DNA of 64,000 nucleotides from IMG/VR virus record IMGVR_UViG_3300045972_000071, positions 23,618 through 87,617 of that record; one strand, written 5' to 3'. Below, piece after piece: positions 6,806 to 26,414 of the stretch; position 1 is the stretch's first letter; every line of letters starts with the position of its first letter. The DNA comes from a virus. The notes under the pieces were generated by a model. That model had not been told where the DNA came from. It made no database searches and saw only the letters and a list, made by a program, of their open reading frames with translations. The position numbers were made by a program, and so were the translations under genes.

Positions 6806-7645
6806 GGTGCTTTCTCCGCAATGACATCTGGACAGACCCTAGATGTGTATGCCTACATTGATTATGTCAATGAGCATAAGGAGTTCTTTGATCTGTATGC
6901 TAACCTTGACGTAATAGGTTCTGCTGAAGGTACATGGAAGAATCAAAGGATAATGGAGAAAGCGGGACTTAATCCATTACCTGTCTATCACATCAATGAA
7001 GATCCTAAGTTTCTTGCGATGGCAATGGAGTATGATTACTTTGCTGTTGGGGGAATGGCAAGATCGAGTTCCGCTTCATTGCAGTTCCAAGTAGATGAAA
7101 TATTCTCTATCATCTGCCCGAAGAGCAACGACTATTTTCCTACTCATAAAATACATGGGTTCGGAACTACTAAACCAAGTATCATGGTCAGCTACCCCTG
7201 GTACTCTGTTGACTCTTCTTCATGGGTTAAATATGGTCTGTACGGTATTGTGCTGATACCCCGATTCTTTCACGGTAAGCCTACATACAATAAGCCACCT
7301 ATGACTGTTGTTATGTCGAACAGATCAAAAGCAATCGGAGATCAACTCCACTTTGCAAACATTTCAGCAATGGAAAAGGAAGCTATCCTTAACTACTTTG
7401 CTGAGAAAGGTATCTCTATAGGAGAATCTTACATCGTCAATGTTGAAGCAGGGCACGAACTGCTGGACAATGAAGTCTGGATAAACAAAGAGAAGACGAA
7501 AGTGGAACAGATTTGTGAGTACGGTCTGATAAATAATCATGTAGCCCGTGACCATGCAAACTTGCTTTACTTTCTTGACCTTGAGAAGTTTCAGCAGAAG
7601 TGGCCATGGCAGTGGAAAAAGAAATCAGGGAGATTAGATATATGA
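6779..7645 (+). CDS. dpdA: Tgt/DpdA-like 7-deazaguanine DNA transglycosylase
   Basis: About 288 residues from a TTG at 6779, chosen because the abandoned first copy at 5909 starts MDSSIFLDS at the same point; the ribosome binding site is weak. FLDSGAFSAMT corresponds to the TDSGGFQ motif of tRNA-guanine transglycosylase (general-base Asp), and YSVDSSSW near residue 140 carries the likely nucleophile Asp. These are marks of the DpdA family, which swaps guanine in DNA for a 7-deazaguanine. The Tgt zinc motif is not seen, as in short phage DpdAs. With queC, queE and folE alongside, DNA modification is the best reading. Paralogue subtype and final base are open. Confidence 0.75.
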   Translation: MDSSIFLDSGAFSAMTSGQTLDVYAYIDYVNEHKEFFDLYANLDVIGSAEGTWKNQRIMEKAGLNPLPVYHINEDPKFLAMAMEYDYFAVGGMARSSSASLQFQVDEIFSIICPKSNDYFPTHKIHGFGTTKPSIMVSYPWYSVDSSSWVKYGLYGIVLIPRFFHGKPTYNKPPMTVVMSNRSKAIGDQLHFANISAMEKEAILNYFAEKGISIGESYIVNVEAGHELLDNEVWINKEKTKVEQICEYGLINNHVARDHANLLYFLDLEKFQQKWPWQWKKKSGRLDI

Positions 7646-7821
7646 GAATTTACTTAGCAGGGAACTTCCCGCAGTTATCGAAAAAAGAATCTGAAATGGT
7701 CATGGTGGAGAACATAAAGAAAGCGGACTCTGCTTATAACCGACTCATTACTTATTTCTTTCCTAAGTATTGCACCACTGTTATCTCAATCAAAAAGGAT
7801 ATGATTGAGGGTAAAATTTAA
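7642..7821 (+). CDS. Small protein coupled to the dpdA-like gene, MRIYLAG start
   Basis: A 59-residue protein whose ATG overlaps the dpdA-like stop (ATGA), with GGGAG upstream. The opening MRIYLAGNFPQ resembles the first strand of nucleoside 2-deoxyribosyltransferase-like proteins, but the fold would need over 100 residues, so this is either a short unrelated protein or the trimmed start of such a gene. Tight coupling suggests a role with the transglycosylase. No firm function. Confidence 0.55.
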   Translation: MRIYLAGNFPQLSKKESEMVMVENIKKADSAYNRLITYFFPKYCTTVISIKKDMIEGKI

Positions 7822-7850
7822 TTAACAGGTACATGAATTTGTGATATAAT
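7822..7850 (+). promoter_or_regulatory. Sigma70 promoter before the sliding clamp gene
   Basis: TTAACA (7822-7827), a 17-base spacer, and TATAAT (7845-7850) preceded by TGA. It is one of the best promoter matches in the window, and it starts the replication block. Confidence 0.75.
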
Positions 7851-7879
7851 CATTATGAATAAAATTAAAAGGAGATGTT

Positions 7880-8908
7880 ATGAAGATACAAAAGGATGTT
7901 CTGCTGTCTGCTCTTATGAAAGTTAAACCAGGTCTTGCAAAGAAGGAAATCATTGAGCAAGCCCAGCACTTCATCTTCTCTAACGGAGAAGTAACTACAT
8001 TCAATGACCAGGTATGTGTCATGCATCCTATCGAATGTGACTTTGACTTCTCTGTAAAAGGTGAAGAGTTTTACAAGATCATAAGCGGTATATCTGAAAA
8101 AGAAATTGACCTCACTATGAAAGAATCTACTCTCCATATCAAAGCGAAGGGCACAAACTGCAAGCTGTCCACACTGCTAGGAGATGCTGGATTTGTTGCT
8201 CCGCTTGTGCAAGTGTTGCGTGACGCAATATCATCTGACGGGTTCTGGAAGAAACTTCCTACAGAATTTCTTGATGGACTTTATCTGTGTGCGTTGTCTG
8301 CAAGTAAGGACTTGTCTACTGGTGTAAAGTCATGTGTTGCTATCAAAGGTGAGAACATTTACTCAACTGATGGATTACGTGCATCCTTGTATGTTATGGA
8401 TTCAAGTATCGAAGAGATAATGATTCCTGCCCGTGACGCTCTTGAACTTATCAAGTACAATGTCACGGAGTACGGTGCTTCTGAAAACTGGATGCACTTC
8501 CGCACTACTGATGGTACAGTGTTCAACTGCAAGTCAATGCGTGGTGATTATCCTTACGCTAAAGTTGACCGTCTGTTTGAAGATGCTGAACCTACTATCA
8601 TGTTTCCTGATACGATGAAAGAGTCAGTTTCTTCGGTTCTGATACTCGCTGAGGGAGATGTTGACATCAACAAGACTATAACCGTATCTGTGAAGAGCGG
8701 TAGCATCACGTGCCATGCGGAAAAAGAACGGGGCAGTATAGACAAAACTGTTGAATGTGATTACAGCGGAGACGCATTCTCCTTCGACATCAATCCGATA
8801 TTCTTTGCTCAGATATTGTCACATGCCCCTGGTCTTGCTCTCTTTGACAATCGTGCCATGTTCTTGTCAGATAATTTCTGGCACGTAATTGCATTACCGG
8901 CACAATAA
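7880..8908 (+). CDS. DNA polymerase sliding clamp (beta-clamp-like)
   Basis: A 342-residue protein, near the 360-370 typical of DnaN. It opens MKIQKDVLLSALMKVKPGL like beta clamps and shows the three-domain rhythm, including IPARDALELIKY in the last third and ALPAQ at the very end, where DnaN ends in MPMR. It would encircle DNA and hold the polymerase encoded 400 bases downstream; the clamp loader is at 12230. Sequence similarity to bacterial DnaN looks remote, so the call rests on pattern and context. Confidence 0.75.
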   Translation: MKIQKDVLLSALMKVKPGLAKKEIIEQAQHFIFSNGEVTTFNDQVCVMHPIECDFDFSVKGEEFYKIISGISEKEIDLTMKESTLHIKAKGTNCKLSTLLGDAGFVAPLVQVLRDAISSDGFWKKLPTEFLDGLYLCALSASKDLSTGVKSCVAIKGENIYSTDGLRASLYVMDSSIEEIMIPARDALELIKYNVTEYGASENWMHFRTTDGTVFNCKSMRGDYPYAKVDRLFEDAEPTIMFPDTMKESVSSVLILAEGDVDINKTITVSVKSGSITCHAEKERGSIDKTVECDYSGDAFSFDINPIFFAQILSHAPGLALFDNRAMFLSDNFWHVIALPAQ

Positions 8909-9093
8909 TGCTTGATTCTAATCCAAGATTGAAACTGATGCTCACAAAATTAAAAGAACAGGTCGACCGTAACTTCATCGACAATGACTGGGCTTGTACT
9001 TTTGTGAATGATTGTCATTCCCGTGCTAGTAAAGGCGGGACTTTCACCGTTAAACAGATTGACAAACTTGAAGAATTATTTGAGAGGTACTAA
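8908..9093 (+). CDS. Conserved-looking small protein, unknown
   Basis: A 61-residue, mostly helical protein whose ATG overlaps the stop of the clamp gene (TAATG). It contains DNDWACTFVNDCHSRASKG and a helical end (QIDKLEELFERY). No family recognised. Translational coupling between clamp and polymerase genes points to a replication-linked role. Confidence 0.65.
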   Translation: MLDSNPRLKLMLTKLKEQVDRNFIDNDWACTFVNDCHSRASKGGTFTVKQIDKLEELFERY

Positions 9094-9297
9094 ATGGAGC
9101 AGCCAGAGAACACCATGATAGAGCGTCCGCAACTGTTTGTTCCCGATGGAATGAAGTTCATTCATGTCCTTCGTAAAGCAATGCAAGAAGCACGTAAGCA
9201 TGGTATTGATGAAGTAGCAATGGTAAGAGATATACAGAGTCATAATGACATCAAGGATAGAATGAATAAACTTCACATCTACTTTGAGGTGGTATAA
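9094..9297 (+). CDS. Small hypothetical protein before the polymerase gene
   Basis: A 67-residue protein starting right after the previous stop. It contains MKFIHVLRKAMQEARKHGIDEV and is predicted helical with a short final strand. Its TAA overlaps the ATG of the polymerase gene (TAATG). No family recognised. Confidence 0.65.
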   Translation: MEQPENTMIERPQLFVPDGMKFIHVLRKAMQEARKHGIDEVAMVRDIQSHNDIKDRMNKLHIYFEVV

Positions 9298-11930
9298 TGG
9301 CAAAGGTGAGAGCATTCTTCGATGATGATGAACTTGACTCCGTAGGTATAAACGGGGCTGGAAGCGGTGCATGTGAGAAGTGTGGTTTAGTTTCAGGATG
9401 CAAGACACCTATGATGGGCTATACAGGTGAGGGGAAGAAGAGAATCCTCATCGTTGCAGAAGCCCCAAGCGAAGCAGAAGATAGAAGCGGTAAGCCGTTC
9501 ACAGGTGACACAGGTAAATGGTTTGCTGAAAAGTTACGCAATAAAGGTATTGACATTGATACTGATTGCTGGAAAACTAACTCTGTCGGCTGTCACCCCA
9601 CTAATCAGAAGGATTGCAAACCCACAAAAGCACAAGTCAAGCATTGTCGTCCACGTGTTATGCGTACTATCGCAGAACTTAAACCTAAGTATATATGGTT
9701 AATGGGTTCCGATGCCATCTATTCTTACTTCCATGAAAGAGAAAATAATACAAATGTTGATAGATGGAGAGGGCTGTGCATTCCTGATGTTGAAAAGAAA
9801 GCATGGATCATTCCATTGTATCATCCTGCTTATGCTTTAAAGTTAGAAAAAGACGACCATTTTCAATCTACATACGACAGGGATTTATCTCATGCCATCC
9901 GATGCTCTAAATTTGCAGACCTCCCAGAAGAAATGTCCCTCAAAGGGGCAAAGATCCTCAAGACTTATGAAGAGACCGTTGCCGCACTCGAAAGAGTATT
10001 GGATGAACGTCCGGATAGGTTCGCTTTCGATTATGAGACCACGGGTCTCAAACCCTATCGCTCAGGCCACAGAATAGCTACGGCATCCTTCTGCTCTGAT
10101 TATGATACCGCTTATGCATTCCCGTATCAGTATCGTAAGCATTGGGATAATAATCAGCTTACACGAATCGGTGATCTATGGTGTGATATCATGGAGCATC
10201 AAAAAATCAAGAAGATAATGCACAACCAGAAGTTTGAAGATATGTGGACACGTGAAATTATGGGTGTTGACATTGCAAACAAATGGTGGTGCTCAATGAA
10301 CACCGCACATATTCTTGATGGTAGAACAGAGTTCTCAGGTCTTAAATTCCAATCTTTAATTCGTTGGGGAATACCTGACTATGATTCTGAGATTGAAAAG
10401 TATCTGAAATCCCCTGATAAAAGCACACCATACAACAGGGTCATGGAAGCACCGCTGAATGACTTATTGCTGTATAATGCCATTGATAGTCTGCTTACAT
10501 TCAGATTACAAGAGGAGCAAGAAGATGAACTGGTAAAACTACCTAGTCAAGACAAAGCACGAAACTTCTTTCAGGGAGGGTTGAACACCTTATGTAACTT
10601 GCAAGAGAACGGTATCCCTCTCAATCGTCAATACTACTTGGATCAAGATATTGAGATAGGTAGCAGAATATTGAAGGCAAAAGAGTCTTTGCACAACTTT
10701 GATGAAGCAAAGCGTTTTCTCCGTGATAAAGGACGTGTCATAAACTTCGGCTCCTCTGATGATCTTGTCGAACTGTTCTTCAACGTCATGCAACTTCCGA
10801 AAGGGAAACTTACCCCGGGGGGTAAACCGTGTGTTGATGCAGGAGTGCTTGCTACGCTTAATACGCCCATTGCAAAAGAGATTACCAAGATTTCAAAATT
10901 AGAGAAGATCAAGGGAACGTACCTGGGTCAGTTTAATCGGGAGATAGAAGATGATGGAAAACTTCATCCGTTTTTTGATTTGCACACAACAAATACTTAC
11001 CGTGGTTCTTCTTCTTCACCCAACTTTCAGAACATACCAGTGCGAGATTTTGAGGCGATGTCGATCACTCGGGGTGGGATTATTCCTTCTTTGGGTAATC
11101 AATTGGTTGATTGGGATTACGGTTCTATGGAAGTTAGAATCATTGCCTGTGTTACGCAAGATCCTGTTTTAATGAGGTATATTGAAGATTCTACTTCTGA
11201 TATGCATAGAGACCAAGCAAAAGATTGGTTCTCTTTCACTGATGCAGAATGGGCGACTATCGACAAGAAACTGGCAAAAGCTGTCCGATTTGAATCAAAG
11301 AATGGATTCGTCTTTGCTGAGTTTTACGGATCATACTACGGCTCTATTGCCCGAACTATGTTCCCTAAGCTGAAAGAACTTTCTATCGGTGAAACTAATC
11401 TGTTTGAACATCTACGCAGTAAGGGTGTAATTCGATCACTCAGCACTGCCGCTGATGATTTTGAGAATCACACCAAGAGAGTTGAGCAAAGATTCTGGAA
11501 TAAGTTTAAAGCGGTAAAAAAGTGGCAAGAGAAAGCATTTGCATCCTATCTTGAAAAAGGATACATCGAACAGATGTTTGGATTCCGATGCGGGGGTTGG
11601 TTATCTAAGAATGATATATGCAACTACCCCATTCAGGGAACAGCATTCCACTGTCTAGTATGGTCACTAGGACAACTTGACAAGCGAATGAAAGACGAAC
11701 GTATGGACTCTTTGCTAATAGGGCAGATCCACGATTGCTGTCTTGGAGATATCACCGTAGATGAACACGATCATTGGTGCCACATGTCTCACAAGATAGC
11801 GACACAAGAGATTCGGGAAGCATTCAAGTGGATAATCGTACCTTTAGATATCGAATTTGAAGAGTCTGGAATCAATGAACCGTGGAGCGTGAAAAAAGAA
11901 TTTATGCCAAAGTTTTTAAATCATAGGTAG
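9297..11930 (+). CDS. DNA polymerase I-type replicase with N-terminal UDG-like domain
   Basis: An 877-residue fusion. Residues about 20-210 are a family-4-type uracil-DNA-glycosylase-like domain: CEKC near 25 and cysteines near 98 and 116 fit the iron-sulfur ligands, AEAPSEAEDRSGKPFTGDTG is the uracil-site loop, and LYHPAYAL near 175 is the HP motif. Next is a 3'-5' exonuclease domain (FDYETTGL near 243, HNQKFE, YNAIDS). The polymerase domain has motif A LVDWDYGSMEVR near 602, motif B KNGFVFAEFYG and motif C IGQIHD near 810. It is the likely replicase. Whether the UDG-like part cuts uracil or only binds it is unknown. Confidence 0.9.
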   Translation: MAKVRAFFDDDELDSVGINGAGSGACEKCGLVSGCKTPMMGYTGEGKKRILIVAEAPSEAEDRSGKPFTGDTGKWFAEKLRNKGIDIDTDCWKTNSVGCHPTNQKDCKPTKAQVKHCRPRVMRTIAELKPKYIWLMGSDAIYSYFHERENNTNVDRWRGLCIPDVEKKAWIIPLYHPAYALKLEKDDHFQSTYDRDLSHAIRCSKFADLPEEMSLKGAKILKTYEETVAALERVLDERPDRFAFDYETTGLKPYRSGHRIATASFCSDYDTAYAFPYQYRKHWDNNQLTRIGDLWCDIMEHQKIKKIMHNQKFEDMWTREIMGVDIANKWWCSMNTAHILDGRTEFSGLKFQSLIRWGIPDYDSEIEKYLKSPDKSTPYNRVMEAPLNDLLLYNAIDSLLTFRLQEEQEDELVKLPSQDKARNFFQGGLNTLCNLQENGIPLNRQYYLDQDIEIGSRILKAKESLHNFDEAKRFLRDKGRVINFGSSDDLVELFFNVMQLPKGKLTPGGKPCVDAGVLATLNTPIAKEITKISKLEKIKGTYLGQFNREIEDDGKLHPFFDLHTTNTYRGSSSSPNFQNIPVRDFEAMSITRGGIIPSLGNQLVDWDYGSMEVRIIACVTQDPVLMRYIEDSTSDMHRDQAKDWFSFTDAEWATIDKKLAKAVRFESKNGFVFAEFYGSYYGSIARTMFPKLKELSIGETNLFEHLRSKGVIRSLSTAADDFENHTKRVEQRFWNKFKAVKKWQEKAFASYLEKGYIEQMFGFRCGGWLSKNDICNYPIQGTAFHCLVWSLGQLDKRMKDERMDSLLIGQIHDCCLGDITVDEHDHWCHMSHKIATQEIREAFKWIIVPLDIEFEESGINEPWSVKKEFMPKFLNHR

Positions 11931-20143: not shown

Positions 20144-20779
20144 ATGAGAGGTAAGAAAGTATGTAAAATTGAAGGATGTGGTGCTTACTGTTTTGGTAAT
20201 GGTCTGTGTGGCAAGCATTATAGACAAATGCGGGATTACGGTAAAATATTTGCACGAACTATAAAAGACCCAAATGATTTTATAATAGATGGTTCTATAT
20301 GCAGAATAGGATGTTATGATTTGAAACATAATTTAAAAGGATATATAATAATAGATGCAGAGGACAGTGAAAAATGTAAACCGTTCAAATGGAATATGGG
20401 AACCGGTGGTCCTGTAGCTAAAGGAATAGTTTTGACTAATTTGATAATGAATAATGACCCAACTACAAAATTGGTAGTGGATCACAAAGATAGGAATACT
20501 TGGGATAATAGGAAAGACAACCTCAGAATATGTACAGTTAAGGAAAACGCCAGAAATAGGGTTCATCCTAAAAATAAATCAGGTTACCGTGGAGTATCTT
20601 GGAGTAATAAAGAAAATAAATGGATTGCCACGATTCAACACGATAGTAAGCAAATGAGATTAGGATGTTTTACCGATATAATCGAAGCGGCAAAAATGTA
20701 TAATATGATGGCAAAGGAGCTACACGGTGAGTTTGCGGTTCTGAATAAAATTCCACTTATTAGGAGAAGAAATGGTTGA
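20144..20779 (+). CDS. HNH homing endonuclease with AP2 domain (cassette 3)
   Basis: A 211-residue paralogue of the genes at 580 and 6004. It has one zinc module (CKIEGC with CGKHY), the HNH core with VVDHKDR and NRKDNLR near residues 105-130, and an AP2-like domain (SGYRGVSWSNKENKWIATI) ending MAKELHGEFAVLNKI. The final codons (LIRRRNG) provide the ribosome binding site AGGAGA and overlap the ATG of the next gene by 8 bases, so cassette and neighbour are translationally linked. Confidence 0.87.
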   Translation: MRGKKVCKIEGCGAYCFGNGLCGKHYRQMRDYGKIFARTIKDPNDFIIDGSICRIGCYDLKHNLKGYIIIDAEDSEKCKPFKWNMGTGGPVAKGIVLTNLIMNNDPTTKLVVDHKDRNTWDNRKDNLRICTVKENARNRVHPKNKSGYRGVSWSNKENKWIATIQHDSKQMRLGCFTDIIEAAKMYNMMAKELHGEFAVLNKIPLIRRRNG

Positions 20780-21041: not shown

Positions 21042-21697
21042 TAGTCATAGGAATTGACCAATCAAAACGATCTACTGCGGTGACAGCCCTGGATGAATAT
21101 GGTGATCTGTTTGGATTCTGTTTGATAAACCCCCCTCTGTACTATGACGGGGAAAAGCTGATAAATTATCAGTGGGAAAAACTGAGTTCATTCTTAGATA
21201 GTATGCCCAATGATGAAATAGTCATAGCCCTAGAGGGTGCGGCATTTGCCGCTGGTGGTGCTTCAAGTGATCTTCTGTGGGGTATTCAGTGGTACATCAG
21301 AACACGCATACATGTTGAGTTTCCAGGGGTACCGATAGGTATTATAACTCCAGCTACTTGGCGTTCAAAGATTCTCCCTGCATCTGAACAAAGAGAATGG
21401 AAAGCGAAGTGCGGGGGCAAGATTGGGCTGAAACACGGAGTAGTTGCAGTTACTCCGGAGTATATCAGATTACGATTTGAAGCATATCTGGAAGGTATCA
21501 AAGCAATCATCCTGGTGGCAAAAGGGAAAGAACCCGACAGCAGAAGTAAAGTGTATAAGGAATGCCTGTTCGATCTTTGTGATTCCTGGGGCATTGCTCA
21601 ACACCGATTGTCACTTACGAAAAAGACAGCAAAGTTTGTTCCTGCACCGGCACCTAAAATGAGTAATATCAAAAGGAGATTCCCTAATGCTCAATGA
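21038..21697 (+). CDS. RuvC-like Holliday junction resolvase
   Basis: A 219-residue RNase H-fold nuclease from GTG 21038. VIGIDQSKRSTAVTALD supplies the first catalytic Asp, VIALEGAAFAAG near residue 70 the Glu, and a C-terminal acidic stretch (ECLFDLCDSWGIAQHRL) the final Asp. It would cut branched DNA left by recombination and before packaging. It overlaps the Rad50 N-half gene by 11 bases. Confidence 0.78.
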   Translation: MIVIGIDQSKRSTAVTALDEYGDLFGFCLINPPLYYDGEKLINYQWEKLSSFLDSMPNDEIVIALEGAAFAAGGASSDLLWGIQWYIRTRIHVEFPGVPIGIITPATWRSKILPASEQREWKAKCGGKIGLKHGVVAVTPEYIRLRFEAYLEGIKAIILVAKGKEPDSRSKVYKECLFDLCDSWGIAQHRLSLTKKTAKFVPAPAPKMSNIKRRFPNAQ

Positions 21698-22781
21698 ATT
21701 AGAGATAAGGAATTACCAATCTCATAAGCATACTTCTCTTTCATTTCATCCTGGAATGAATGTCATTACCGGAACATCTGATTCCGGTAAATCTGCCATT
21801 ATGCGCTCCATGCTTTGGGCATTGAAGAACAGACCTGCAGGAGAATCTTTCAAGAACTGGGGTGCGAGCGCAACAGATGTCGTTGATGTGTCCATGGAAT
21901 TTGATAATGACTATTTTACTAAGTCTCGTATAAAAGGGAAAAATAGTTATGAAACAGAAACGGACACTTATGAAGCACTACGGTCTGATGTACCTGACGC
22001 CATAAATGCCATTGCAAACATAACCGACTATAACATTCAGACACAATTTCAACCTTACTTCATGTTGCAAGATTCTGCCGGTGATCGTGCTAAACAGTTA
22101 AACACACTTGTTGGTCTGGACATCATTGATTCTCTTTTTAAGAAACTGAATGGTAAGATTCAAGTCACAAAGACTTCGGTCAAAAGTTGTGAGGGATCCA
22201 TTGTTAAAATCCAGGAACAGATTGACAGTGTTCAAGACCTGACTTCTATCGTGCAAACGACTGACAGAATGACTCTGACTATAGACAGCTATGAGAAAAT
22301 GAAGGAGAGTGTGCGCTCCTTAAGCGAGAGCATCGGTAAATTAGTTGAGATTGACAGACAAATCACTGAAAAGTCCGAAATCCTAAAATCTGAACGCCCT
22401 CACCATCTGTTACAGAACAAAGTAGAATCACACCAGATTGATAAACTTCTTTGTGAAACATTAGCCGGGGATATTAAGAATCTGGTTAATACCAATGATA
22501 ATTTAGATGATGATGTTGAGTGGTTGCAGATTGAGAAACCATATACCTCTCTTATAAATAAATGTAAAGAACGATCAGATTGGCAGTTTGACCTTAAGGA
22601 CTTAAATGCAGATGTAAATGTTTTGTTGGATTTAACTAACAAAATTAGAAATGTAGGTACTGATTTAAGTGATATTATAAAGCTGTATACTGACAAACTT
22701 GCAGAAGAGAAGGTATGCCCTACATGCATGAGTAAGATAGGTTCTTTAACCTTAGAAAACATAAAAAGGAGTTTGGCATGA
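21687..22781 (+). CDS. Rad50/SbcC-like ATPase, N-terminal half ending at the zinc hook
   Basis: A 364-residue protein carrying only the first half of an SbcC/gp46 ATPase. RNYQSHKHTSLSF is the family start, ITGTSDSGKSAIM near residue 29 is Walker A, and QTQFQPYFMLQD is the Q-loop. A coiled coil follows and the protein stops about 20 residues after CPTC (near 345), the zinc hook. No signature motif or Walker B is present. Those are in the separate gene at 25791. Two chains, one from each gene, would have to join at the head to form one active ATPase. Confidence 0.88.
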   Translation: MLNELEIRNYQSHKHTSLSFHPGMNVITGTSDSGKSAIMRSMLWALKNRPAGESFKNWGASATDVVDVSMEFDNDYFTKSRIKGKNSYETETDTYEALRSDVPDAINAIANITDYNIQTQFQPYFMLQDSAGDRAKQLNTLVGLDIIDSLFKKLNGKIQVTKTSVKSCEGSIVKIQEQIDSVQDLTSIVQTTDRMTLTIDSYEKMKESVRSLSESIGKLVEIDRQITEKSEILKSERPHHLLQNKVESHQIDKLLCETLAGDIKNLVNTNDNLDDDVEWLQIEKPYTSLINKCKERSDWQFDLKDLNADVNVLLDLTNKIRNVGTDLSDIIKLYTDKLAEEKVCPTCMSKIGSLTLENIKRSLA

Positions 22782-22987
22782 CAAAGGTAAAAGTAATCAG
22801 GAATTTAGATTTACCAACTAAAGCCCCACTATCATTGACTATATCTATTTGGTTGCTTCTGGATAGATTACAAGTAAGTCCTGTATGGATGGGTGTGTAC
22901 TACACAATATTTACCGTTATATGGATTAGTATAATCACCTCCTTTGTTATGCAGGAATCTGTACCCGTCAAATTTGAGGAGAAATAA
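22778..22987 (+). CDS. Small two-helix membrane protein
   Basis: Sixty-nine residues overlapping the Rad50 N-half gene by 4 bases. Two hydrophobic segments (LTISIWLLLDRL and GVYYTIFTVIWISIITSFVM) suggest a membrane hairpin. Function unknown. Confidence 0.6.
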   Translation: MTKVKVIRNLDLPTKAPLSLTISIWLLLDRLQVSPVWMGVYYTIFTVIWISIITSFVMQESVPVKFEEK

Positions 22988-23502
22988 TGAGCCGACATCT
23001 TATCATAGTTAATGGTTATCCTAAGTCCGGCAAAGATGCCTTCGTTGACTACTGTTGCAGTGCGTTGGAAGATACACCGTACTGGACACGCAATGTATCA
23101 AGCGTTGATAACGTGAAGAAAGCGGCCTTGTTGTTAGGTTGGGACGGGGCTAAGGATGAATCTGGACGTAACTTCCTTTCAGAACTGAAAGATTTAAGTA
23201 CCCACACGTATGACGGTCCCATGCAATACATGCGGAGCGTGATTGAGTCTGTTCCAGAAACACACAATTTTGCTCTGTTCTTTCACATCCGAGAACCAGA
23301 AGAAATAGCAAAGTTTGTCACTTTGTATCCAAATACTATCACGGTGTGTGTTCACCGAATAGAATCAGAGAAAACATACATGAACACTGGTGACCGGAAT
23401 GTACTTGCTTATCCATATGATAAGCACATTGAAAACTATACCACTTTACGTGATCTGAAAGAGAAGGCTAACAAATTTGTGGAGGAATTAATATGCGAGT
23501 AG
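22987..23502 (+). CDS. P-loop nucleotide kinase, dNMP-kinase-like
   Basis: A 171-residue P-loop protein. IIVNGYPKSGKDAFV near the N-terminus is a Walker A of the type in T4 gp1-like deoxynucleoside monophosphate kinases, with FHIREPEEIAKF resembling their substrate-binding REP segment. It precedes and overlaps thyX, which fits dTMP being raised to dTTP. Substrate is inferred. Confidence 0.72.
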   Translation: MSRHLIIVNGYPKSGKDAFVDYCCSALEDTPYWTRNVSSVDNVKKAALLLGWDGAKDESGRNFLSELKDLSTHTYDGPMQYMRSVIESVPETHNFALFFHIREPEEIAKFVTLYPNTITVCVHRIESEKTYMNTGDRNVLAYPYDKHIENYTTLRDLKEKANKFVEELICE

Positions 23503-24179
23503 TATTGATGGAACACACCCCTAATCCTGAGAAAGTAGTGGCACGTGCTGCCAAACAATGTTACTCTGCAGGATTCGTTGGTGATGATTTTGTTGAAAAT
23601 GCCGTTCATGATTGTACCGGTGCTGATATTAAACGCATTCGTGACGTATTTGCCAACGGTCACCTGTCCTGCTTTGAACACGCATCATTCACTTTTGCTA
23701 TTGAAGGTATTTCCAGAGCATGTTCCCACCAGCTTGTTCGTTTCCGTGTCGCTTCATTCAGTCAACAATCACAGCGGTACTGTCAGCTAGGTGAGAACTT
23801 TGCTTATGTTATCCCGCCATCCATTCAGAATAACCCAGAAGCGAAAAAACTGTTTGTTCGCACCATGCTTGAATTGAGCAAGACCTATGAAATTCTTATC
23901 GCTAATGGAATACCTGCTGAGGATGCAAGGTTTGTCGCACCCAATGCCACAGAAACGAATATCGTAATGACCATGAATGCTAGGGAGTTACTCCACGCAT
24001 TCAGTCTGCGGTGCTGTACACACGCTCAATGGGAAATTCGTGATATGTTCAATACGATGCTCCCAATGTGTAAAGAAGCGGCACCACTTCTGTTTGAGAA
24101 TGCGGGTGCGCCTTGTGATGTAAAGGGAACATGTCCTGAAGGTACTCGTTCATGTGGTAAAATTAACAATGCAGTTTAG
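23493..24179 (+). CDS. thyX: FAD-dependent thymidylate synthase
   Basis: Makes dTMP from dUMP using FAD and methylene-tetrahydrofolate. The 228-residue protein has the ThyX signature as RFRVASFSQQSQRY near residue 80 (Phe where most have His), FEHASFTF before it and NARELLHAF with LRCCTHAQWEIR after it, all at normal spacing. It starts within the kinase gene (10-base overlap). Together with the kinase it secures thymidine for replication. Confidence 0.92.
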   Translation: MRVVLMEHTPNPEKVVARAAKQCYSAGFVGDDFVENAVHDCTGADIKRIRDVFANGHLSCFEHASFTFAIEGISRACSHQLVRFRVASFSQQSQRYCQLGENFAYVIPPSIQNNPEAKKLFVRTMLELSKTYEILIANGIPAEDARFVAPNATETNIVMTMNARELLHAFSLRCCTHAQWEIRDMFNTMLPMCKEAAPLLFENAGAPCDVKGTCPEGTRSCGKINNAV

Positions 24180-24369
24180 TATAAGGCATAAGTATCACAA
24201 AACTGGATCTGTATTTTCGGAAGAAGATGCCCCTGACTGGTTGACTGGAGTTAATACAGTCAGGGGTTCAACTATGGATTGCAGGTGGTTCTGGACAGAC
24301 CATGTACTTACTCTTGAAGTAGGAAAGAGTGTTGACACTGATTTTCATACAATAACCAGACTAGTATAA
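24169..24369 (+). CDS. Small hypothetical protein overlapping thyX
   Basis: About 67 residues from ATG 24169; a second possible start at 24154 lies deeper in thyX and neither has a clear binding site, so coupling is likely. Aromatic and His-rich (RHKYHKTGSVF, DCRWFWTDHVL). Family unknown. Confidence 0.5.
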   Translation: MQFSIRHKYHKTGSVFSEEDAPDWLTGVNTVRGSTMDCRWFWTDHVLTLEVGKSVDTDFHTITRLV

Positions 24370-24379
24370 GAGGTGCAAC

Positions 24380-24595
24380 ATGGCAGATGATAAAGTGGTC
24401 CAATTACCTGGTACACAACAGAAGATTCCATTTGTTCAGTTAGTTAAACAGATGGTTGAAGAACTTCCGGCACAAATTGAGTATTACCGTTGTGTTGCTA
24501 AGATCAAGAAGTCATATCAGAAAGACTTGATTGCTGAGGGGTTTACCAAAGATGAAGCATTCACTCTAGTCAGAGATATTTTCACAGGTAAATGA
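24380..24595 (+). CDS. Small helical hypothetical protein
   Basis: Seventy-one residues with AGAGG before the ATG. It reads as two helices (FVQLVKQMVEELPAQIEYYR and KDEAFTLVRDIF). No family recognised. An extended -10 follows at 24602. Confidence 0.65.
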   Translation: MADDKVVQLPGTQQKIPFVQLVKQMVEELPAQIEYYRCVAKIKKSYQKDLIAEGFTKDEAFTLVRDIFTGK

Positions 24596-24610
24596 AATAC
24601 ATGTTATTAT
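24581..24610 (+). promoter_or_regulatory. Promoter before the Mre11-like gene
   Basis: TTCACA (24581-24586), an 18-base spacer and TATTAT (24605-24610) with TGT before it. The downstream bases (TATTATCAT) match the sites at 11943 and 15282, suggesting co-regulated promoters. Confidence 0.5.
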
Positions 24611-24641
24611 CATAATAGATATTGAATTTAGTGAGGGTGTT

Positions 24642-25556
24642 ATGAAAATATTATGTGCGGGTGATCAGCACTGGACAACAACTAAACCCAAGAACAGAAC
24701 TGATGATTACTACAAAACTGTTCTGGATAAACTCCAGCAAGAATGTGAGATTGCTGAGGAGTATTTCTGCAAAGCAATCATCTTCCCTGGTGATCTATTT
24801 GATTCGTTCAAAGAGAACCACGCAATAACACAGGACATTATCAATCTGTTCAAAGATGCCCATATACAGATATTCTGCGTTGCAGGCCAACACGACCAGA
24901 AGTTTCATAACAATGATCTTCGTGGTACTGCGTTAGGAACACTTATTGCCGCAGGGGTTGTCACACTTCTCAGTAGAAGTCCTTACTTTATAGACAGTGT
25001 GGCATTGTACGGTGCTTCTTGGAAAGAAGAGATACCTGAAATTACTGTACCTAATCAAGTAAACATCCTCGTTACCCACAGAATGATTGTAGATGAAAAA
25101 CTGTGGGCCCAACAAGAAGGACATGCTTGGGCAAACCATTTGCTTATCAAGAATAAGTTTGACCTGATTGTATCTGGTGATAATCACAAAAGATTCTCTG
25201 CATCCAAAGGATCACAGCACTTGATTAACTGTGGTGCTATGCTCCGATCATCCATTGCCCAAGTAGAACACAAACCCGCTGTTGCTGTTTATGATACATG
25301 TAAAAACTCGTTTGAATGGGTTGAGTTGGTTATCAAACCCATAGATGAAGTAATGTGTATCGAAAAGGCAGAGAAGGAGAAGGAGAAGAATAAACAGCTT
25401 GAATCGTTTGTATTGTCTCTGAAAGATGCCGAGTTCGGACCGCACGGAGAAGTGCGTATAAAGCTGGATTTTGTTGATGCTCTGACAAAGTATATCGAAG
25501 CAAACGAAGTACCCGATGATGTGGCAGATATAATCTACGAATTACTGGAGAAATAA
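24642..25556 (+). CDS. Mre11/SbcD-like nuclease
   Basis: A 304-residue calcineurin-type phosphoesterase, partner of the Rad50-like ATPase. Metal ligands appear in order: AGDQHW near 8, PGDLFDSF near 50, GQHDQ near 88, VTHRM near 147 and SGDNHKRF near 178. The C-terminal part is short and helical (KAEKEKEKNKQLESF), the expected Rad50-binding region. It would resect DNA ends to feed RecA. It lies between the two halves of its ATPase partner. Confidence 0.88.
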   Translation: MKILCAGDQHWTTTKPKNRTDDYYKTVLDKLQQECEIAEEYFCKAIIFPGDLFDSFKENHAITQDIINLFKDAHIQIFCVAGQHDQKFHNNDLRGTALGTLIAAGVVTLLSRSPYFIDSVALYGASWKEEIPEITVPNQVNILVTHRMIVDEKLWAQQEGHAWANHLLIKNKFDLIVSGDNHKRFSASKGSQHLINCGAMLRSSIAQVEHKPAVAVYDTCKNSFEWVELVIKPIDEVMCIEKAEKEKEKNKQLESFVLSLKDAEFGPHGEVRIKLDFVDALTKYIEANEVPDDVADIIYELLEK

Positions 25557-25557
25557 G

Positions 25558-25797
25558 ATGGCAACTATCCAAGAAGAATTGAATAAACTTGGCAAGGAAA
25601 TTGAAGCTGCCAAGCGTAGTGTCGCTCAACTTGAGGGACGTAAGTCCGAGATTATGGACGGACTCAAAAAGAACTTCAATGTAGATACCATAAGCGGAGC
25701 GGAGTCTCTTCTCAAGACAATGCAGGATAAAGTAACAGCTATGGATGAAGAAATTATGAATGAATTTGAAGCCCTGAAAAGAGACTTCTCATGGTAA
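25558..25797 (+). CDS. Small coiled-coil protein between Mre11 and Rad50 C-half genes
   Basis: Seventy-nine residues, nearly all coiled coil (EELNKLGKEIEAAKRSVAQL), overlapping the next gene by 7 bases. Its place and heptad pattern suggest it may extend or bridge the arms of the split Rad50, but that is inference. Confidence 0.65.
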   Translation: MATIQEELNKLGKEIEAAKRSVAQLEGRKSEIMDGLKKNFNVDTISGAESLLKTMQDKVTAMDEEIMNEFEALKRDFSW

Positions 25798-26414
25798 CTG
25801 GAAACTACGGATATGAACTGAATAAGGTCAAGACCAAGATTGACGAACTCCAACTGTATAAGAAGATGAAAACAGAGCAGTTGGAAGAAACAAAACTGGA
25901 ACTATCCCAGCTAAATAAGACGCTCCTCTCTGCTGAAAAAGCCAGAGCAGTTGTGCAGGCGGTGGCTAATGACGTACAAAAGAGCCTTGAATACCGTATT
26001 ACCAACATTGTTACTATGGCTCTTGCTTCTGTTTTTCCTGACCCATACGAGTTTAAAGTGGAGTTTGTCACCCGACGGAACCAAACTGAATGTGATATGT
26101 ACTTTGTCCGTGATGGGAATGAGTGCGACCCAATGGACTCAACTGGGGGCGGGGCCATCGACATTGCATCTTTAGCATTACGTATGGCTATCTGGTCAAT
26201 AAAGAAAACCAGGGCAATTCAACTTCTTGATGAACCTGCAAAGTTTTTATCAAGAGACTTGCAAGAAAAGTGTTCGGAGATGCTCAAGGAACTGTCGGAG
26301 AAGCTCGGCATTCAGATGATAATAATATCTCATATCCCCGAAATGATAAGTGCGGCAGATCGTGTTTTTAACATAGAATTAATCAATGGAGAATCCCATG
26401 TTAGAGTCATTTAG
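25791..26414 (+). CDS. Rad50/SbcC-like ATPase, C-terminal half
   Basis: A 207-residue protein carrying the second half of the ATPase head. It has a returning coiled coil (residues 10-70), the ABC signature as DSTGGGAIDIASLALRMA near 115, Walker B QLLDEP near 145 and the switch His in IIISHIPEM near 178. No Walker A and no zinc hook. It complements the gene at 21687, 3 kb upstream. It begins at ATG 25791 inside the coiled-coil gene. Confidence 0.88.
   Translation: MVTGNYGYELNKVKTKIDELQLYKKMKTEQLEETKLELSQLNKTLLSAEKARAVVQAVANDVQKSLEYRITNIVTMALASVFPDPYEFKVEFVTRRNQTECDMYFVRDGNECDPMDSTGGGAIDIASLALRMAIWSIKKTRAIQLLDEPAKFLSRDLQEKCSEMLKELSEKLGIQMIIISHIPEMISAADRVFNIELINGESHVRVI

Follow-up and report, generated by a model that had tools for sequence, protein, structure and literature searches.

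Rad50 is classically a single continuous chain, and how its coiled coil relays signals between head and hook is still debated. Archaeal Rad50, known from the Mre11-Rad50 complexes of P. furiosus (Pfu) and M. jannaschii (PDB 1ii8, 3aux, 1ii7), is naturally a single polypeptide whose two matching arms are joined covalently by a turn at the hook; the Pfu heads were crystallised as two chains (1f2t A/B, 1ii8 A/B). In phages, T4 gp46-gp47 and T5 D13-D12 are SbcC/SbcD-type end-processing complexes encoded beside replication and recombination genes, and their ATPase subunits are single chains, as a preliminary description of the DNA studied here had pointed out, with lengths of 560 (gp46) and 612 (D13) amino acids. 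Here, we describe a locus in virus record IMGVR_UViG_3300045972_000071 of IMG/VR that resembles these systems in its head lobes, Walker A and B motifs, CPxC hook, Mre11 partner and recombination setting, but differs from them in that Rad50 is divided between an N-terminal gene (N-half) and a C-terminal gene (C-half), accompanied by a small helical hairpin protein that archaeal Rad50 lacks. The window analysed comprises 64,000 nucleotides, bases 23618-87617 of the 87,617-base record. Judged by its sequence, the locus very probably encodes an Mre11-Rad50 nuclease of the phage that acts on DNA ends, with a Rad50 put together from separate polypeptides.

A Rad50 head divided between two genes

The preliminary description placed a gene with Walker A, a Q-loop and a coil ending at CPTC at 21687, and a gene with the return coil, ATP-binding cassette (ABC) signature, Walker B and switch His at 25791; both the coordinates and the motifs were verified (Table 1). 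In profile searches the N-half and the C-half match opposite ends of solved Rad50 (3aux, 5e-17 for each half; also 1ii8 and 1f2t), which is the best PDB match of both, and the hook region of the N-half profile also matches the solved Rad50 hooks 6zff and 1l8d. The Pfam AAA_23 match of the N-half spans residues 4-227, while the C-half also matches the C-terminal part of SMC_N in Pfam and phrog_77 in PHROGs. An AlphaFold model of the N-half (predicted local distance difference test, pLDDT, 89) comprises the N-lobe, helices at residues 145-181 and 185-341, a turn at the hook and a short helix running back at 353-363, and a Foldseek search with this model ranked N segments of Pfu Rad50 first. The nucleotide motifs and hook cysteines of the N-half and the Walker B motif of the C-half are near-invariant among relatives, with Lys35, Ser36 and Gln120 conserved as expected of a Rad50 N-lobe. 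Each half is missing half of the nucleotide site and their motifs are complementary, so that neither alone is a full ATPase, as had been proposed. No second Rad50 head, full-length Rad50 included, was found elsewhere in the 87.6-kb record.

Conservation of the split in viruses

Viral contigs were scanned with an N-lobe alignment using the Walker A motif as the only pattern, hence recruitment was blind to splitting, and open reading frames (ORFs) at all recruited loci were sorted by purpose-built hidden Markov models (HMMs). Not one ORF joining an N-half to a C-half was found among 75 distinct viral N-half sequences. Sixty-nine of these are complete, and 67 carry the CxxC of the zinc hook at the coil apex, no more than 28 residues from the C-terminus, a recurrence which indicates that the position of the hook is not due to chance; the two complete N-halves without a terminal CxxC come from loci L055 and L097. 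The preliminary description interpreted the arrangement as a genuine split rather than a frameshift and proposed that relatives be searched for the same split, with a single full-length gene as the refuting case. The same split recurs in more than 60 distinct loci, with no joined version found among the relatives and no full-length gene found within the split clade.

Mre11 and the C-half are both encoded near the N-half in 54 viral loci. The hairpin protein was detected at 52 of these by HMM and at the other two (L095 and L102) by eye, so the earlier suggestion that this small coiled-coil protein may be a third part has gained support. Gene order is N-half, Mre11, hairpin, C-half in 48 of 52 viral loci, and in 42 of 52 the hairpin gene either overlaps the C-half gene or is at most 15 nucleotides from it. 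In most loci the hairpin gene stands directly upstream of the C-half rather than of Mre11, a position it keeps in phage vB_BboS-125 and in Sutcliffiella, in both of which Mre11 now follows the C-half.

Several of these parts are already present in public records, apparently without ever having been joined. PHROGs families phrog_16465 (‘exonuclease’) and phrog_15167 (‘ATPase’) belong to this split system, as do gp32, gp34 and gp35 of Bacillus phage vB_BboS-125, and labels in use include ‘chromosome segregation protein’. The public record of vB_BboS-125 has no annotated Mre11; we located this gene at L001:7424-8404 (record 22423-23403), inside an unannotated gap. All four parts are present in Microcystis phage Mvi-JY20, each labelled ‘hypothetical’. 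The four genes of Microbacterium phage Magritte are scattered across its genome, with the N-half at 93.8 kb (Magritte gp247 was considered as an N-half and dropped, its sequence being clamp-like), and Tunturiibacter phage Tunturi_5 carries a C-half. No NCBIfam model reaches its cut-off for proteins of the split system. We found no description of a split Rad50/SbcC in the open-access literature, subscription papers being outside the search, and priority is therefore not established.

A further variant occurs at locus L095, where Mre11 is fused to the N-half (6978-9287), followed by the hairpin gene and, 1 kb downstream, a separate C-half (10304-11014). We presume L095 to be the corresponding locus of Bacillus phage 0305phi8-36. 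For that phage, Yoshida et al. (2011, PMC3175470) described an Mre11-Rad50 fusion and remarked on a P-loop NTPase segment that they did not observe. On the presumed identity the two fusions would be the same, and a C-half encoded as a separate downstream gene would explain the missing segment.

Two other interrupted genes were seen during the survey. In L006 (7971-8606) an apparent frameshift breaks the C-half into two ORFs in that contig, and in Staphylococcus phage vB_SauM-HM01 (L156:7293-11149) an annotated transposase separates what appear as two pieces of an SbcC-type gene, so that the same gene is split in another way.

Obligate co-occurrence in bacterial genomes

A scan of bacterial genomes revealed the cassette on Firmicutes contigs as well, and the split is therefore not confined to phages. 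On contigs recognised by sequence as Natroniella, Halonatronum and Caloramator, the cassette is flanked by recA-recX and rny-ymdB-spoVS and has the order Mre11, N-half, hairpin, C-half; the four-gene cassette at this position on Firmicutes contigs (L105, L107 and L116) constitutes an unnamed recA-linked operon. Pseudobacteroides cellulosolvens encodes Mre11, the N-half and the hairpin protein together and the C-half 1.09 Mb away.

The same 291 Clostridia-class genomes were scanned twice independently, once with the N-half and once with the C-half. Both scans returned an identical set of 21 genomes (~1 in 14), with no discordant genome. Under independence the chance of such co-occurrence is ~10^-32, a figure inflated by shared ancestry, the true one being less extreme. 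The halves occupy separate open frames in these matches, separated by at most 2 kb in 15 genomes, by 0.33-1.11 Mb on one contig in three, and located on different contigs in the remaining three. In the six genomes with unlinked halves the products must therefore meet in trans, and the identical distribution, distant halves included, implies that selection, rather than just linkage, maintains the pairing. The N- and C-halves are thus distributed as obligate partners; this pattern favours assembly in trans and is the strongest evidence for one machine made from separate chains.

The second SbcC-like gene of Natroniella acetigena (L134) consists of a 499-residue ORF with CPTC at residue 458 and a separate downstream frame, which may represent a frameshift or another split.

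Table 1 Features of the split Rad50 locus (window coordinates; residues numbered within each protein).
Feature	Position	Strand	Evidence
Rad50 N-half, 364 amino acids: N-lobe, long outgoing helix, terminal zinc hook	21687..22781	+	Pfam AAA_23 2e-11; phrog_16465 9e-30; PDB 3aux 5e-17; AlphaFold pLDDT 89
Walker A GTSDSGKS, N-half residues 29-36	21771..21794	+	G29, G34, K35, S36 invariant, 64/64
Q-loop region NIQTQ (Gln120), N-half	22032..22046	+	Q120 in 63/64
Outgoing arm, N-half residues 145-341, predicted helices 145-181 and 185-341, period-47 repeat	22119..22709	+	AlphaFold; repeat analysis
Zinc hook CPTC, N-half residues 344-347, 17 residues before C-terminus	22716..22727	+	Both Cys 64/64 in alignment
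Putative deoxynucleotide kinase between halves, bystander	22987..23502	+	Weak match to phrog_139, E 0.001 only; same neighbour in L016
ThyX thymidylate synthase between halves, bystander	23493..24179	+	Thy1 5e-69
Mre11/SbcD nuclease (predicted), 304 amino acids	24642..25556	+	Metallophos 1e-8; phrog_100 2e-15; PDB 1ii7 6e-15
79-residue helical hairpin protein, candidate third Rad50 subunit	25558..25797	+	AlphaFold pLDDT 95; kept beside C-half in relatives
ATGGTAA, C-half start overlapping hairpin gene stop	25791..25797	+	Sequence
Rad50 C-half, 207 amino acids: short return coil and C-lobe	25791..26414	+	phrog_15167 1e-29; PDB 3aux residues 170-368, 5e-17
ABC signature STGGG, C-half residues 117-121	26139..26153	+	G119 and G121 52/52; Ser not conserved
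Walker B and D-loop start, Asp147-Glu148-Pro149 (LDEP), C-half	26229..26237	+	D 52/52, E 51/52
Switch His181 (SHIPE), C-half	26331..26333	+	His 38/52, Asp 9/52

The genes lying between the halves are those given in the preliminary description (kinase, ThyX, Mre11 and the coiled-coil protein), the kinase being assigned by a weak match only. Window positions 20144-20779, inside the recombination cluster, hold a 211-residue ORF with HNH/AP2-like sequence, and in vB_BboS-125 an AP2-domain gene directly follows the N-half.

Length and repeats of the coiled-coil arm

The split had been placed at the zinc hook, and the hook is indeed terminal on the N-half. The division is not symmetrical, however, in that most of the return arm is absent rather than simply moved to the second gene. 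Over 50 loci, 261-478 residues separate Walker A from the hook, whereas only 107-149 lie between the start of the C-half and its signature, 75-111 make up the hairpin protein and 2-28 follow the hook. Even with the C-half coil, hairpin and post-hook tail summed, the return side is still 53-241 residues shorter than the outgoing side; corresponding outgoing and return lengths are 469 vs 443 in E. coli SbcC and 252 vs 180 in T4 gp46. These loci thus depart from the single chain with equal arms that is the usual architecture of the family, though not its catalytic definition, and because a longer outgoing arm is not matched by a longer return arm, they do not simply encode a Rad50 cut at the hook.

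The outgoing arm is composed of tandem 47-residue helical repeats bearing a continuous hydrophobic seam (mean repeat score at offset 47 of -0.06 vs -0.63 +/- 0.18, with 74 spacings of exactly 47). A heptad quantisation of arm length was considered and dropped, the real period being 47 residues. Distances from Walker A to the hook cluster at ~260-275, 297-325, 353-366, 381, 428-432 and 477 residues, as if repeats had been gained or lost. Since the seam extends over the whole arm, a partner helix is implied, and this could be a second N-half, the return strand being too short.

Mre11 partner and origin of the split

The Mre11 metal-ligand columns D8, H10, D51, H84, H146 and H182 are conserved in 37 of 37 sequences, as expected of a phosphoesterase partner. 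Two of the Pfu metal ligands are exchanged in the viral proteins, N84 for Q in 32/37 (GNHD to GQHD) and H206 for D in 35/37 (GHxH to GDNH). The latter change also occurs in Mimivirus R555 (Yoshida et al., PMC3175470). The canonical GNHD is present in nearly all full-length bacterial relatives checked, and GHYH is clearly retained in several.

A maximum-likelihood tree was computed from 54 Mre11 proteins, 47 from split and seven from unsplit systems. All 47 fall on one side of a single branch (support 100/98; 100% of bootstrap trees), with T4, T5, SPO1, EFGrKN, HM01, E. coli and the second Natroniella copy on the other. A single origin of the split is favoured by this topology but not proved, the unsplit sample being small (seven) and some joins long-branch.

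Proposed assembly and alternative explanations

We hypothesize that the N-half, with Walker A and the Q-loop, and the C-half, with the signature, Walker B and switch His, fold into one ABC head. The Pfu Rad50 heads, solved as separate N and C chains, are a direct precedent for such assembly in trans. Two heads would dimerise around ATP and open and close an Mre11 dimer as in SbcCD, with predicted ATPase and nuclease activities. The outgoing arm would come from the N-half, whose terminal zinc hook may pair with that of a second N-half, and the contribution of the C-half would be limited to a short coil returning at the neck. The ~80-residue hairpin protein, whose synthesis immediately precedes that of the C-half, probably packs against the coiled coil at the neck or arm and would replace part of the missing return strand. 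Its conservation leads us to read the complex as a three-subunit Rad50 plus Mre11. The likely role of the complex is DNA-end processing for recombination-dependent replication and repair, beside the phage RecA and flap nuclease.

A tentative variant of this model is that two N-half helices, each with a zinc hook at its end, pair in parallel with each other and not with a covalent return strand, the C-halves and hairpins clamping the neck only. If true, such an arm, built from a variable number of 47-residue repeats, could be opened, exchanged or dismantled during the ATP cycle.

Certain observations weigh against the three-subunit Rad50 as proposed. The C-half signature is reduced to xxGxG, without a conserved Ser, and the switch position is not conserved across the family. 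The Magritte N-half has no zinc hook, hence the hook is not absolutely required; nor is the hairpin protein, given that only its last ~24 residues are left in one bacterium (G099; L144, 2900-3025). In addition, the role given to the hairpin protein derives from neighbourhood and conservation. A close relative of L144, L142, has the whole hairpin protein, and the loss in L144 is a deletion or an assembly error.

This protein is also the subject of the alternative that survives best, namely that the ATPase consists of the two halves with Mre11, and the hairpin protein, though conserved, is no structural part of Rad50 but a distinct helper encoded at the locus, such as an Mre11 cofactor or regulator. 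We consider this plausible, but less likely than a Rad50 subunit. The AlphaFold model (pLDDT 95) contains two helices, at residues 2-40 and 45-77, and hairpin length does not track arm length (Spearman 0.13); a plain extended return strand is not favoured, because the protein folds as a hairpin and its length is independent of the arm. Derivation from the coil of either half finds no convincing similarity (hhalign probability of 19-22% only), a Foldseek search with the hairpin model gave no match, and the T4 locus yielded no relative of the hairpin gene, as 46.1 and 46.2 do not match the hairpin profile. The truncation in one bacterium likewise fits a helper. Arguing for a Rad50 subunit instead is the gene order, in that the hairpin gene remains directly upstream of the C-half, mostly overlapping it, even where Mre11 has moved.

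It is very unlikely that the halves belong to two different complexes, each a half-ATPase with some other partner. Separations of up to 1.1 Mb and the degenerate signature would be compatible with such an arrangement, but the halves have the same distribution in 21 of 21 genomes, and each alone would be left without half a nucleotide site that the other complements.

Equally improbable is a Lamassu-like defence system or an SMC/RecN-type ATPase in place of a recombination Rad50. Weak PADLOC matches to the LmuB and mad3 models were obtained, and a passage in PMC10586767 counts Lamassu among SMC-related defence systems. In the proteins tested the LmuB matches are generic, however, and in place of LmuA/LmuC and a one-chain LmuB the neighbours are replication, recombination and nucleotide genes. 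The terminal CxxC hook and the lack of a hinge differ from SMC and from the hookless short coil of RecN, and the Mre11 partner, the best profile and fold matches and, in Clostridia and Halanaerobia, a location flanked by recA-recX and rny all point to Rad50.

A sequencing error, or decay of a full gene through a frameshift, intron or mobile insertion, a kind of break seen in the HM01 gene and the L006 C-half, is already refuted by the conserved arrangement, since intact starts and stops recur in bacterial chromosomes and in phages that have diverged widely, the halves are separated by unrelated genes and both keep their motifs.

Implications

A naturally occurring Rad50 in which hook and C-lobe are not covalently connected allows a direct test of which strand carries the signal, and its small modular parts could be combined in vitro. 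The separate C-half accounts for the ATPase segment noted as missing in 2011, given the presumed identity of L095 with 0305phi8-36. Finally, the split system brings a small, conserved protein as a candidate subunit into a complex that has been studied extensively, and provides annotation for two unnamed phage families and for a recA-linked operon in Clostridia and Halanaerobia.

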